Assembly: GCF_010499265.1 (NCBI RefSeq)
Contig: NZ_JAAGSC010000037.1
Coordinates: 62,001 to 126,000 of the forward strand
Source: Wenzhouxiangella limi
GTDB lineage: Bacteria; Pseudomonadota; Gammaproteobacteria; Xanthomonadales; Wenzhouxiangellaceae
DNA: 64,000 bases
Reading direction: 5' to 3'
Within the stretch, counting starts at the first letter, position 1. Each line of letters opens with the position of its first letter. The position numbers and the translations under genes were made by a program. Under the pieces are notes generated by a model. The model searched no databases and was not told the DNA's origin. It saw nothing but the letters and a program-made list of their open reading frames with translations. This document shows, one piece after another, positions 13,936 through 21,413 of the stretch.

Positions 13936-15576
13936 TCACCTGTTGGGGAAGGTACCACTGAAGATGACGGTGCCACCCTCGAGAATCTCGATCGATTCGC
14001 CGCGAACATTGAAGTTCAGCAGTTCATCGTCAGAGTCCCGGGGATCGGAAAACGTGATTTTCCCTTCGGCATTGAAGCCATCGTCATCATCTTCATCGAC
14101 GACCGCGACGATGTCACCCCGCTCGACACCAGCTACCGTCAAGGTGTAAGTGCCGGCCGGCACGTCGTCGATTTCGACCTCAAACTCGCGGCCGTCTTCA
14201 TCAATCTCGTATTGCGCCTCCGCGGAGGCATCCGGGTAAACCCCTTCATTCGGCAGATCGAAATCGATCTCGAGGTCCGGTCCCGGCCCTTTACCGCCAG
14301 GTCCGCCGTGCCCCGGCCGATCCGAATTGGAATCATCACCGGAGCTCGGGAAGTCAACGAAAAACAGCGTTGTATCTCCCTCGACGATCTCGATCAGCGA
14401 GCCGCGCGGGTCGAAGTCCAGCAACGGATAACCAGCGGTCAACGGAAAACGAAACTCCAGCTCGCCTTCGGTATCGCCGTCGTCGTCAAGCTCGACGCTG
14501 ATCACGCCCACTTCGGTCATGTCGACCCAGACCGGGTATTCACCGACGGGGATGTCTTCAACCTCGATTTCAAAGCTGACCAGGCGTCGTTCGCGTTCCA
14601 GTTCGGCGGACGCTTCGCCATCTGAATAGACTCCGGAATTGGTCATTTCGACTTCGATTTCCTGGCCACCAAAACCCGGACCCTTGCCTTCGCCGACCGG
14701 CGTGCCTTCTTCCGGAGCGTCCGAGGAAAGCACCAGCTCTCCATCGAGAAACACCTCGATACTCTGGCCGCGCGGATCGAAATCCAGCAGCGGCTTGTCG
14801 CCACGCTGCGGCGACCGGAACTCGAGCTCGCCTTCGGCCCAGTCGTCGTCATCGTCATCCATGACGGCAACGAGGGTGCCGCGCTCTTCACCGCCGACGA
14901 CGACGCTATACTCGCCGGGCTGGACGTCCTCGATCTCTATCTCGAACTCGGCGGAACCGGGACGCATCACCCATTCAGCCTCGCCCTGCGCATCCGGATA
15001 GTCCGGCGTCGGATCGAGGTCAATTTCAAACTTTTCAGGCGGCGCGCTGGGCGGGACGTTGTCGCTGACCCCACCGCTGCATTCCATGCCGGGCACCGTG
15101 GTCAAGCGCTGAATCGCGAATCCACCGGCCCCAACCGCCGGCAGCTCTGTGGTGTAGCTCACCTCGCCGCGATCGCAGTTTTCGAACACGATCTCAAAAG
15201 TGCCAATACGCTCTTCGGCATCCGGCCGGGTGCCGCTGGCCTGCATGAAATTGACCCCGCGCACCTGAAACAGGTCGGCCTCGATGGTGTCATCTCGCAG
15301 CGGGCCTTGGGCCAGCAGCCAGGTTGGGCTGCCGCTATCGTTGTAGTGAGCCCAGAACACCACTGCGGTCTGGTCACCCCCGGGAAGCCGGGAGATGGCG
15401 ATGATGAGACCGTGGTTCTGCTCATCGGGCTGATCCCACCAGCCAGTGAAGCTGCCTGTCACCTTGAACGCCGCAGCCGGCGATGCCACGGCAGCCATGA
15501 GGATTAGGCCGAACAGCACAAAACCGGCCCGAAGGCGAAGAGAAGTCACACCAGTTGTCATAAATTTATTATTCAT
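13936..15576 (-). CDS. Secreted acidic protein with three tandem repeats
   Basis: 546 aa. Signal peptide about residues 1-36 (AGFVLFGLILMAAVASPAAA). Residues 38-166 form a domain seen in secreted proteins of this lineage: GSFTGWWDQPDEQNHGLIIAI, AVVFWAHYNDSGSPTWLLAQ, with a Cys pair (FENCDRG, GMECSGG). Residues about 183-286, 305-410 and 434-544 are three repeats of one module, each with a D(V/I)PxGxYxVxV strand, an acidic turn, GELEFRxP and LLDFDPRGxxIEV. Repeat 3 varies to LLNFNVRG. Clusters of Asp (up to six in a row) suggest calcium binding or salt adaptation. Function unknown; likely exported, possibly cell-surface. No Shine-Dalgarno is obvious before the ATG. Confidence 0.7.
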   Translation of the reverse strand: MNNKFMTTGVTSLRLRAGFVLFGLILMAAVASPAAAFKVTGSFTGWWDQPDEQNHGLIIAISRLPGGDQTAVVFWAHYNDSGSPTWLLAQGPLRDDTIEADLFQVRGVNFMQASGTRPDAEERIGTFEIVFENCDRGEVSYTTELPAVGAGGFAIQRLTTVPGMECSGGVSDNVPPSAPPEKFEIDLDPTPDYPDAQGEAEWVMRPGSAEFEIEIEDVQPGEYSVVVGGEERGTLVAVMDDDDDDWAEGELEFRSPQRGDKPLLDFDPRGQSIEVFLDGELVLSSDAPEEGTPVGEGKGPGFGGQEIEVEMTNSGVYSDGEASAELERERRLVSFEIEVEDIPVGEYPVWVDMTEVGVISVELDDDGDTEGELEFRFPLTAGYPLLDFDPRGSLIEIVEGDTTLFFVDFPSSGDDSNSDRPGHGGPGGKGPGPDLEIDFDLPNEGVYPDASAEAQYEIDEDGREFEVEIDDVPAGTYTLTVAGVERGDIVAVVDEDDDDGFNAEGKITFSDPRDSDDELLNFNVRGESIEILEGGTVIFSGTFPNR

Positions 15577-18634: not shown

Positions 18635-19888
18635 TCAATCAGCCCTGGTCGAAACAAATTCCGGATAGGCCTCCATCCCGCATTCGCCCATGTCCAGGCC
18701 GGAGAACTCTTCTTCTTCACCGACACGGATACCGACCACGGCCTTGAGAATGGCCCAGACGATCAGGCTGGAGACGAAGACAAACACGAAGATCGCGGCG
18801 ATACCTGCCAGCTGGCCGACCAGGGTGGCATCCCCGTTGCTCAGCAGCACCGCCAGGATGCCCCAGACACCAACAACGCCGTGGACGGAAATGGCGCCAA
18901 CGGGGTCGTCGATCTTGAGCCGATCCAGGCCGACGATCGAGAAAACGACGATCAGGCCACCGATCGCGCCAATGACCGCCGACAGCAGTGGTGCGGGCGC
19001 GAGCGGCTCGGCGGTGATCGAGACCAGTCCCGCCAGGGCGCCGTTCAGCGCCATGGTCAGATCCGCCTTGCCGAACATGAAGCGGCCCAGCAGTAAAGCC
19101 GCGACCAGGCCGCCGGCCGCGGCCAGGTTGGTGTTGACGAACACCATGGCGACGTTGTTGGCCGAAGCCACGTTCGACACCATCAGTTCAGACCCGCCGT
19201 TGAAGCCGAACCAGCCCATCCAGAGAATGAACATGCCCAGCGTGGCCAGCGGCAGGTTGCTGCCGGGAATTGCATTGATCTTGCCGTCGGCACCGTACTT
19301 GCCCTTGCGCGGCCCCAGCAGCAAAACGCCGGCCAGCGCGGCGGCAGCCCCCGCCATGTGGACGATACCCGAACCGGCGTAATCGCTGTAGCCGATCTCG
19401 CTCAGGAAACCGCCACCCCAGCTCCAGTAGCCCTGGATCGGATAGATCACGCCGGTCAGGACCACGGCGAAGGCAAGAAAAGCCCATAGCTTCATGCGTT
19501 CGGCAACCGCGCCGGAAACAATGGACATGGCCGTCGCCACGAATACGACCTGGAACATGAAGTCCGACAGGTTGGAGTAATAGATATCGCCGTCGCTGGC
19601 CAGCACCTCTTCCAGCGTGTTGTCTCCGCCCAGGAAAAGGCTGATGCCCGGGATATACATGTTGGCCCCGTCGCCGTACATCAGGTTATAGCCGATGATC
19701 ATGTACATCAGGCACGCGATCGAGTAGAGCGCGACGTTCTTTGTAAGGATCTCCACCGTGTTGCGCGAGCGGACCAGGCCGGATTCCAGCATGGTGAAAC
19801 CGGCCGCCATCCACATGACCAGCACCGCGCAAACGAGGAAATAAAAGGTGTCGAGCGCATACTGGACTTCAGTAATTGTTGATTCCAT
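18635..19888 (-). CDS. amt: Ammonium transporter Amt/AmtB
   Basis: 417 aa with eleven predicted membrane helices, the normal Amt/Mep/Rh length. Family motifs include GAVAERMKLWAF, the signature DYAGSGIVHMAGAAAALAGVLLLGPR with the pore histidine of VHMAGG-type, and SVHGVVGVWGILAV containing the second pore His. It moves ammonium/ammonia across the inner membrane as a trimer and is plugged by GlnK under nitrogen excess. It follows glnK by 30 bases, with a GGGAG site, in a glnK-amt operon driven by the sigma-54 promoter at 20350-20365. Confidence 0.95.
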   Translation of the reverse strand: MESTITEVQYALDTFYFLVCAVLVMWMAAGFTMLESGLVRSRNTVEILTKNVALYSIACLMYMIIGYNLMYGDGANMYIPGISLFLGGDNTLEEVLASDGDIYYSNLSDFMFQVVFVATAMSIVSGAVAERMKLWAFLAFAVVLTGVIYPIQGYWSWGGGFLSEIGYSDYAGSGIVHMAGAAAALAGVLLLGPRKGKYGADGKINAIPGSNLPLATLGMFILWMGWFGFNGGSELMVSNVASANNVAMVFVNTNLAAAGGLVAALLLGRFMFGKADLTMALNGALAGLVSITAEPLAPAPLLSAVIGAIGGLIVVFSIVGLDRLKIDDPVGAISVHGVVGVWGILAVLLSNGDATLVGQLAGIAAIFVFVFVSSLIVWAILKAVVGIRVGEEEEFSGLDMGECGMEAYPEFVSTRAD

Positions 19889-19918: not shown

Positions 19919-20257
19919 CTACAGTGCGGCTTCGTCGACTTCGCCAGTGCGGATTCGAATCACGCGCTCCAGTGAGGTCACGAAAATCTTGCCGTCGCCG
20001 ACCTTGTCACTGCGGGCACTAGCCAGGATGGCGTCAGCGACCAGCTCGAGATCATCGTCCTTGACGGCAACTTCCAGCTTGACCTTGGGCAGCGCGTCAA
20101 CCTTGTATTCGGCACCTCGATAGAGCTCGGTATGCCCCTTTTGGCGCCCGTAGCCCTTGACTTCGGTGATTGTGAGTCCCTGCACGCCGGCCTGCTCCAG
20201 GGCCGAGCGTACGTCATCGAGCTTGTAGGGCTTGATGATGGCGGTAATCTGCTTCAT
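19919..20257 (-). CDS. glnK: PII nitrogen regulatory protein GlnK/GlnB family
   Basis: 112 aa, full PII length. The T-loop reads GRQKGHTELYRGAEYKVD with Y51 as the uridylylation site, and the C-terminal signature is KIFVTSLERVIRIRTGE. As a trimer it senses 2-oxoglutarate and ATP/ADP and binds Amt, glutamine synthetase adenylyltransferase or NtrB. Linkage to amt favours the GlnK name over GlnB. AAGGAG precedes the ATG. Expression is probably nitrogen-controlled via sigma-54. Nothing unusual in key residues. Confidence 0.95.
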   Translation of the reverse strand: MKQITAIIKPYKLDDVRSALEQAGVQGLTITEVKGYGRQKGHTELYRGAEYKVDALPKVKLEVAVKDDDLELVADAILASARSDKVGDGKIFVTSLERVIRIRTGEVDEAAL

Positions 20258-20349
20258 GCCGCATCTCCTTATTGATGGTTCGGCCTGCGAGGCCGGTGCT
20301 GTTCTTGTTTCCGTGGTCGGGTTCGAATGATCATGCTGCCCACCGTCAT

Positions 20350-20365
20350 CGCAAGTGCCGTGCCA
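20350..20365 (-). promoter_or_regulatory. Sigma-54 promoter of glnK-amt
   Basis: Minus strand reads TGGCACGGCACTTGCG, an essentially perfect -24/-12 element (TGGCACG-N4-TTGC) with correct 10-bp GG-GC spacing. Transcription would start near 20339 and give a leader of about 82 bases to the glnK ATG. Confidence 0.85.
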
Positions 20366-20459
20366 TTCAAGCAGGGCTCTTTAAAGCCCTGATACGATTA
20401 CTTTTCCTGAAAGACAGGCAAAAGACGGTGCCTCGAAATTCAGCAAAATAAGCCGCGGG

Positions 20460-20475
20460 TGCACTGATATTGCGC
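20460..20475. promoter_or_regulatory. Possible NtrC-type enhancer site
   Basis: TGCACTGATATTGCGC fits GCAC-N7-GTGC with one mismatch. It lies about 130 bases from the glnK start point and about 208 from the porin start point, suitable for shared use by two divergent sigma-54 promoters. Weaker GCGC-N7-GC-type pairs occur near 20570. Only moderately convincing from sequence. Confidence 0.35.
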
Positions 20476-20648
20476 GCCGCACAAAAGTGCACGTCGAGTA
20501 ACGAACCTGTCGCCCCTGGCGTAACGGTCCGGGGCGTTGCGCGGAAAAAAAGCAGAAAGACTCGCGATGTGCGCGAAAATTGCTCTCCCGCAGCGGACGG
20601 AAGAGCTCTTCTTCTCATAACCTACTGAAAAATAGAGTGTCTTTTTTA

Positions 20649-20664
20649 TGGCACGTCTTGTGCA
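20649..20664 (+). promoter_or_regulatory. Sigma-54 promoter of the TorF-type porin gene
   Basis: TGGCACGTCTTGTGCA matches TGGCACG-N4-TTGCA with one change (G for the first T of TTGC) and correct GG-GC spacing. Predicted start near 20675, leader about 52 bases. It is divergent from the glnK promoter across the same gap. Confidence 0.75.
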
Positions 20665-20726
20665 ACGCACTAGTCAGCAGCACTCTCGCTGCCCGAGCGT
20701 TCAACTCGCAATGAGGAGCAGGTCAC

Positions 20727-21413
20727 ATGATCAAGACTAGTGGAATACTGACAACATCGGCTGCCCTGGCCACCGCCGGCGCGCTGGCCCTGGGATCGTC
20801 ACAACCCGCGCAAGCCGAGGTCAGCGCCAACATCGGCGTGGTCTCGAGCTACTTTTTCCGCGGCTTTTCCGAAAGCGATGGCGGCGCCGCGGTTCAGGGT
20901 GGTTTGGACTACGAAGCCGAAAGCGGGTTTTATGCCGGCACCTGGGCATCCAACGTGGATTTCGGCGACAGCACCAGCTACGAGCTTGACCTTTATCTCG
21001 GTTTTGGGGGCGAACTCGGGGAAGGTGTGGGTTATGACGTCGGCTATATCTATTACGCCTATCCCGATGCGCCCGGCAGCGCCGATTTCGGCGAGATTTA
21101 CGGTGAGCTGAGCTTCGGCATGTTCTCTGTCGGTGCGGCCTACGTCGTCAACGACAGCAGCGAATCGGCGCTGGTCAACGACGATCTTTACTACTACGCC
21201 GGCCTGGGCTTCGATCTGGTCGACGATTACAGCATGGGGTTTCTTGTCGGCCGAACCGCCTTTGATGACTCCGCACGCGAAGACTACACCCACTACACCG
21301 GTAGCCTGGCCAAGGCCACGGACTCCCTGGGTGAATTCAGCTTCAACCTGGAATACGAAGACACCTTCGACAAGGACCTGAAGGCCTGGGTGGGCTGGAC
21401 GCTGGGATTCTGA
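20727..21413 (+). CDS. TorF family putative porin (Gcw_chp-type outer-membrane protein)
   Basis: 228 aa from ATG 20727 with AGGAG upstream. Signal peptide about 1-29 (ALATAGALALGSSQPAQA). The mature part begins VSANIGVVSSYFFRGFSESDGG, which is the Gcw_chp/TorF hallmark, continues as alternating aromatic/hydrophilic beta strands rich in Asp, Tyr and Gly, and ends in a terminal phenylalanine (GWTLGF), the outer-membrane barrel signal. The substrate of the family is unknown. A sigma-54 promoter and divergence from glnK-amt suggest it lets a nitrogen source cross the outer membrane when nitrogen is scarce. That role is inference. Confidence 0.8.
   Translation: MIKTSGILTTSAALATAGALALGSSQPAQAEVSANIGVVSSYFFRGFSESDGGAAVQGGLDYEAESGFYAGTWASNVDFGDSTSYELDLYLGFGGELGEGVGYDVGYIYYAYPDAPGSADFGEIYGELSFGMFSVGAAYVVNDSSESALVNDDLYYYAGLGFDLVDDYSMGFLVGRTAFDDSAREDYTHYTGSLAKATDSLGEFSFNLEYEDTFDKDLKAWVGWTLGF

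Follow-up and report, generated by a model that had tools for sequence, protein, structure and literature searches.

The window, by which we mean the whole 64,000-nucleotide stretch of Wenzhouxiangella limi DNA that was analyzed, contains glnK and amt on the minus strand and, pointing away from them, a gene for a putative outer-membrane porin on the plus strand. The genes and the features of the gap between them are as follows (positions are those of the window).

18635 to 19888, minus strand: amt, ammonium transporter of the marine subtype (PF00909; TIGR03644, 675.5 bits, cut-off 514)
19919 to 20257, minus strand: glnK, PII signal protein (PF00543, 106.7 bits), with its ATG at 20257
Between glnK (minus) and the porin gene (plus): divergent gap of 469 bp
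20350 to 20365, minus strand: -24/-12 (sigma-54) element TGGCACGGCACTTGCG, facing glnK-amt, score 16.5
20461 to 20475, no strand: NtrC-type enhancer-like site GCAC-N7-GCGC, one mismatch to GCAC-N7-GTGC
20649 to 20664, plus strand: -24/-12 (sigma-54) element TGGCACGTCTTGTGCA, facing the porin gene, score 16.8
20713 to 20718, plus strand: ribosome-binding-like GAGGAG, 5' of the porin ATG, read from the sequence
20727 to 21413, plus strand: TorF-family putative porin (Gcw_chp; PF09694, TIGR02001), a predicted 12-strand beta-barrel with an acidic lumen, with its ATG at 20727

The preliminary description of this DNA had placed glnK-amt opposite a TorF-type porin, and the family profiles agree (PF00543, TIGR03644, and TIGR02001). 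The porin scores 171.9 bits against TIGR02001 (cut-off 47.15) and 106.6 bits against PF09694 (cut-off 24), the latter being its sole Pfam match at an E-value of 0.001 or better. Downstream of the porin gene sits mutM (formamidopyrimidine-DNA glycosylase). Elsewhere in the window, at positions 13936–15576 of the minus strand, there is a gene for a secreted-looking protein of 546 amino acids with about three internal repeats around an LLDFDPRG-like motif.

The sigma-54 consensus is TGGCACG-N4-TTGCW. The GG and GC dinucleotides of both elements are correctly spaced, and TGGCACGGCACTTGCG and TGGCACGTCTTGTGCA each have one mismatch to the consensus (the -12 part of the porin element is GTGCA instead of TTGCW). 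The claim that a near-perfect -24/-12 element lies on each strand is thus borne out: both are present where they had been placed, with one departure each, and they are the top two of the window. If they act as promoters, transcription would be expected to start near 20339 on the glnK side and near 20675 on the porin side, giving leaders of ~80 nt and ~50 nt, respectively.

A loose pattern search is uninformative here. With up to two mismatches, TGGCACN5TTGCW has 36 matches in the 64-kb window against 32.4 expected, which is not above chance; four of the 36 have a single mismatch, and both elements are among these four. Because the two-mismatch pattern occurs at chance level, we used instead a graded score, shuffles, and presence or absence in relatives. 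The score covers 12 positions with weights set by hand from the consensus, and the threshold of 14 applied below was chosen after the values were seen (for linked torF genes, thresholds from 11 to 16 were all tabulated). On this scale, the porin-facing and glnK-facing elements rank first and second in the 64 kb, the next value being 14.3. When the gap was shuffled 4000 times with dinucleotides kept, a single shuffle reached 16.4 or more on both strands, and none of the 1252 other 469-bp segments of the stretch reached 14 on both. We regard conservation in relatives as a stronger test of the paired elements than these chance statistics.

The family set used for that comparison comprises 43 genomes, the W. 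limi genome included. The porin has a match in 16 of the 43 and this Amt in 27; all 16 porin genomes carry the Amt, no porin match occurs in the 16 genomes without it, and 11 of the 27 Amt genomes have no porin match. Since the genomes are all relatives of one another and in part incomplete, the co-occurrence is not a count of independent events. TorF lies away from glnK in two of the porin genomes (L068 and L069). The divergent layout is found in six genomes of the genus, that of the window included. Conservation of the paired elements in relatives had been proposed as a check in the preliminary description, and both are present in all six, with porin-side scores of 16.8, 14.3, 16.8, 14.6, 14.6, and 14.3 and glnK-side scores of 16.5, 19.0, 16.8, 19.0, 19.0, and 16.5. 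In 19 further genomes of the family, which have no divergent porin, the 600 nt upstream of glnK contain a porin-facing element in no case and the glnK-facing element in 17. In a 20th (L354, in which 279 nt could be examined), the glnK-facing element is present and the opposing one absent. In all these control genomes glnK lies beside Amt; L058 was left out, G007 has no glnK in its stretch, and L367 and L347 come from one genome, as do L368 and L364.

Beyond the family, TorF loci were taken at the levels of family, order, and class, as top-scoring matches plus mostly one per genus or family among the matches listed, so that the counts are not an estimate of frequency. Among the matches listed, glnK is present in 86 of 155 TorF loci and absent from the other 69, and the loci that hold glnK nearly always have an ammonium channel too. 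By layout, the 86 linked loci divide into 71 with torF before glnK on the same strand, seven that are divergent, seven with the order glnK>amt>torF, and one with glnK-amt on both sides. The porin-glnK pairing occurs with two Amt classes, the marine subtype seen in the window and another that is ~32% identical (L084–L098).

Within 300 nt upstream, a sigma-54 score of at least 14 occurs at 47 of the 87 linked torF genes for which 150 nt or more of upstream sequence were available, against 0 of 87 in the reversed sequence and 0.4% in shuffles; at a threshold of 16, the corresponding values are 26 of 87, 0 of 87, and 0.1%. Broken down by family (with one further locus that has a short upstream region), a site is present at 38 of 46 linked torF genes outside families f1, f2, and f11, at seven of 15 in f1, where glnK-first loci bear the site before glnK, at none of 14 in f2, and at three of 13 in f11. 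The linked loci of f2 and f11 (within L084–L117, L134, and L139) keep the gene order and mostly lack the element, and nitrogen control there may therefore differ. A second view comes from a sample collected without regard to the porin, using a pattern based on a glnK primer (from PMC3023670), which gave a mixed sample of at least 118 loci. In this sample, torF precedes glnK>amt in 23 of 51 pairs among the matches listed, and a sigma-54 site was found at 20 of the 21 torF loci that could be scored (24 torF loci in all).

NtrC-type enhancers have the motif GCAC-N7-GTGC. The GCAC-N7-GCGC that had been reported between the two elements was recovered at 20461–20475; the -24 element lies 110 nt downstream of it on the glnK side and 188 nt downstream on the porin side. 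Viewed from glnK, a site with at most one mismatch occurs in four of the six divergent genomes, the window counted, at -110, -112, -112, and -135 relative to the glnK -24 element, and the other two are without one; when the divergent genomes are aligned, the site falls within a conserved block, which those two show less clearly. More broadly, 34 of 48 linked sigma-54 promoters have an exact GCAC-N7-GTGC no more than 250 nt upstream of their -24 element. As a control on spacing, nine spacings other than N7 give no more than two matches each at the same promoters, and inside torF there are no exact NtrC-type sites (0 of 48). Of 41 exact sites, 36 start between -150 and -101, which puts the site in the window at the usual distance for glnK and further off for the porin; one enhancer may serve both promoters. 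Among torF genes that are not linked to glnK, 14 of 67 have a sigma-54 element, and at these 14 there is an exact NtrC-type site in three and one with at most one mismatch in 10 (1 to 4 at other spacings). Nitrogen-type control may thus not require adjacency to glnK.

The history of the divergent layout was examined with a quick tree of 181 TorF proteins (FastTree, with SH-like support only). The porin of the window belongs to a set of 38 rows (support 97) made up of 20 torF>glnK, seven glnK>amt>torF, six divergent, and five unlinked loci. The divergent loci form a clade whose sister (97) is the glnK>amt>torF clade, in which a sigma-54 element and an exact NtrC-type site precede glnK in 7 of 7 loci, and the torF>glnK relatives come next (90). 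Because the divergent clade is nested among linked layouts, it is best read as the common operon rearranged, with a sigma-54 start for each half. An in-frame TGA in the Amt gene of the glnK>amt>torF clade was considered and set aside, as in the seven loci checked it is an ordinary stop near the C-terminus. Elsewhere on the tree, in family f136, is a second divergent amt-glnK / torF locus (L187), with two sigma-54 elements that score 19.0 each.

Genes for the regulators are present in the genome. One ntrC gene lies above the cut-off (contig C32, 301173–302528; TIGR01818, 592.8 bits, cut-off 558.6), the best family of the adjoining kinase gene is NR(II), at 204.1 bits and under the cut-off of 240, and glnA lies beside the two. 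The site upstream of this glnA scores 12.7, and a pattern search for NtrC-type sites in the 300 nt before the gene gave no match. There are two full-length rpoN genes over the TIGR02395 cut-off, both outside the window (C33, 335327–336685, and C36, 418012–419319). The C36 copy adjoins a sigma-54 activator homologue and has several -24/-12 pattern matches within ~25 kb; at a guess, its surroundings are perhaps a flagellar cluster.

The predicted model of the porin is a 12-strand barrel of the outer-membrane type (mean pLDDT 83.8, pTM 0.77). When the model was compared with solved structures using VIA-align, KdgM (4pr7) came first with a Z of 20.7, followed by NanC (2wjq) with 19.4, at ~10% identity, and the top rows from Foldseek were invasin/intimin and OmpG, with TM-scores near 0.5. 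A sequence search for a solved TorF homologue found none that was convincing (there were two matches, at E 0.08–0.09, to a beta/alpha-amylase chain). With strand faces assigned by hydrophobicity, the lumen side of the porin carries 15 acidic residues and one basic residue. Acidic residues exceed basic ones on the lumen side in all 177 TorF rows scored (of 181; in the other four, not enough lumen positions were aligned). Position E86 is acidic in each of the 177 rows and D88 in 175, and D61, D104, and E123 are further conserved acidic residues. In the model, this hints at a cation-preferring pore. We dropped the idea of a lumen specific for ammonium, given that the lumen is also acidic in unlinked TorF proteins, including those beside sulfate genes. 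As a family-wide property, the acidic lumen neither fixes the substrate nor singles out ammonium.

Taken together, we consider a divergent nitrogen-starvation control region, with a porin that feeds Amt, to be the best explanation of the whole, and give it a probability of about 70%. Under nitrogen scarcity, NtrB would phosphorylate NtrC, which would bind the enhancer-like site at 20461–20475 and activate RpoN-polymerase at both -24/-12 elements, so that glnK-amt and the porin gene would be switched on together from the 469-bp gap. The trio would correspond to the known nlmA-glnK-amtB unit of Herbaspirillum seropedicae, with the porin gene turned to point away from glnK-amt. The porin itself, as a small 12-strand outer-membrane barrel, may let small nitrogen solutes through more readily (ammonium and small amines being the likeliest), and Amt would in this way be fed at low outside concentrations. 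The regulatory part is well supported by the sequence and agrees with the regulation published for another genus, and an uptake role for the porin is plausible. What the sequence shows is the paired elements and their conservation, the class of enhancer site, the regulators, the porin family, and the linkage; the firing of the promoters, a shared enhancer, and the transport role are inferred. Several results count against the reading: the mismatch in the NtrC-like site, its distance of 188 nt from the porin element, and its failure to score within one mismatch in two of the six divergent genomes; the GTGCA of the porin element; the low score before glnA; the Amt genomes with no porin match; the position of TorF in L068 and L069; the scarce or missing elements in f11 and f2; the sulfate context; the acidic lumen common to the whole family; and the periplasmic placement of NlmA. 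The preliminary description had suggested that the porin serves nitrogen uptake across the outer membrane. Of this, the co-control with glnK-amt, of the sigma-54/NtrC type judging by sequence and recurring in many families, stands; the nitrogen substrate does not follow, as related TorF genes come after sulfate genes and 11 of the 27 Amt genomes have no porin match.

The first alternative keeps the regulation as described and differs in the cargo: the porin would serve organic nitrogen (amino acids, amines, or TMAO-like solutes), and glnK-amt would simply mark the starvation signal. Since the two readings share the regulation, the odds that we attach to them are not exclusive. Ammonium is small enough to pass through general porins, which favors a different cargo, as do four unlinked sigma-54 TorF genes that adjoin the omega-aminotransferase gene aptA in two families (L109, L131, L156, and L201; L109 additionally has methylmalonate-semialdehyde dehydrogenase). 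These four suggest another nitrogen-scavenging context. The family name, moreover, derives from the porin of a TMAO system (SO4694 of Shewanella oneidensis carries this annotation in PMC5955497). However, the neighbor that recurs is glnK, in the 86 of 155 loci noted above (among the matches listed), and nearly always together with an ammonium channel, from either of two Amt classes. The search for linked units covered glnK, amt, and torF, and an organic-nitrogen transporter could lie further out. We see this alternative as possible, on the unlikely side.

The second alternative, which we find improbable, is that the porin is an envelope component of general starvation, either structural or stress-related, or a small porin shared by several starvation regulons. 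In its favor is family f2 (probably Xanthomonadaceae, although this is a guess), in which 19 TorF genes of a separate TorF lineage follow a close cysA homologue (L070–L083, L089, L099, L100, L137, and L163). In L100, the run is sbp-cysT-cysW-cysA-torF, that is, sulfate-uptake genes and then the porin, and sbp, cysT, cysW, and cysA occur together in six further loci. As in the window, TorF here accompanies a system that takes up a scarce nutrient across the inner membrane, but the nutrient is sulfate instead of ammonium, and none of the 19 cysA-following torF genes has a sigma-54 site of at least 14. A split into nitrogen-type and sulfate-type TorF may exist within single genomes: in G255 and G275, one TorF gene is found by glnK-amt and another near an ABC ATPase, which shares ~50% identity with CysA but may belong to a different transporter. 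General starvation would also fit the 69 of 155 loci without glnK (among the matches listed) and the location suggested for NlmA, "most probably in the periplasm" in the available text of PMC3023670. What argues against it is that the recurrent contexts are inner-membrane uptake systems for scarce nutrients, and that the predicted model, a barrel of the channel type, most resembles KdgM and NanC, both of them uptake porins. A last possibility, that one -24/-12 element is there by chance and that the porin gene needs no RpoN for its expression, is very improbable: the two-mismatch consensus is indeed no commoner than chance in the window, but the gap shuffles (1 of 4000), the other segments (0 of 1252), and the relatives (both elements in 6 of 6 divergent genomes, the porin-facing one in 0 of the 19 that have no divergent porin) all speak against it.

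With its glnK-amt, cysTWA, and AptA contexts, TorF seems to be a porin scaffold that has been joined to several scavenging systems. We put forward, tentatively and at somewhat less than even odds, the generalization that TorF porins are dedicated, regulated outer-membrane partners of inner-membrane scavenging systems, a single scaffold having been recruited to the uptake of ammonium (glnK-amt) and sulfate (sbp-cysTWA), to omega-amino-acid use (aptA), and to TMAO. If this generalization holds, current Amt/GlnK models are missing a specific outer-membrane step, under NtrC control, in the way many Proteobacteria scavenge ammonium. Conserved promoters, sites of the enhancer type, and gene order across many families can link the Gcw_chp/TorF porin family, which is of "unknown function" in Pfam, to nitrogen starvation, and also to the NtrC-dependent NlmA of Herbaspirillum. 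Whether high-affinity ammonium uptake has its own outer-membrane channel thus becomes a testable question.

Published work bears on several of these points. Among the matches listed, no paper connects nitrogen or NlmA with the name of the TorF family. The one paper that came up for the family names, PMC13303613, mentions a TorF porin in its available passages only as a constituent of a nanoparticle shell, and those of PMC2621215 and PMC8222739 contain nothing on a TorF porin. For an ntrC mutant of Burkholderia cenocepacia, altered porins are listed (PMC5491218), and for Paraburkholderia phymatum an RpoN site is described that precedes the gene for PII, itself upstream of amtB (PMC5979394).

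Several known systems invite comparison. KdgM and NanC share with the porin of the window the 12-strand monomeric barrel fold, as far as the predicted model goes; the likeness is one of fold only, with no sequence-family match in the Pfam scan. These two import acidic sugars via basic lumens, in contrast to the acidic lumen of TorF. The TorF of Shewanella oneidensis (SO4694) has the family name of TIGR02001 in common with the porin of the window: in the available part of PMC5955497 it is annotated as "TMAO reductase system outer membrane porin," hence with TMAO respiration, whereas the porin of the window is found with glnK-amt.

The closest parallel is the nlmA(orf1)-glnK-amtB operon of H. 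seropedicae. According to the passages available of PMC3023670, which cites Noindorf 2006 and Huergo 2010 for the first description of orf1/nlmA, this operon is NtrC-dependent, and an amtB::lacZ fusion was 21 times more active under nitrogen limitation. In the congener Herbaspirillum huttiense (L209), the layout is torF>glnK>amt, the TorF protein scores 166.4 bits against TIGR02001, and upstream there is a sigma-54 site of 16.8 together with an exact NtrC-type site. Judging by where the gene lies in this congener, NlmA of H. seropedicae is a TorF-family porin. Compared via H. huttiense, the operon and the window have three gene families in common (TIGR02001 porin, PII, and Amt). They differ in that the Herbaspirillum genes form one operon in the order porin-glnK-amtB, whereas the porin gene of the window is divergent and has its own sigma-54 element, and in that the ammonium transporter of the window is of the marine subtype (TIGR03644), unlike that of the operon. 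As nlmA-glnK-amtB is already established as NtrC-dependent, the regulation that we propose for the window would be known in kind, and its divergent layout would be a variant.
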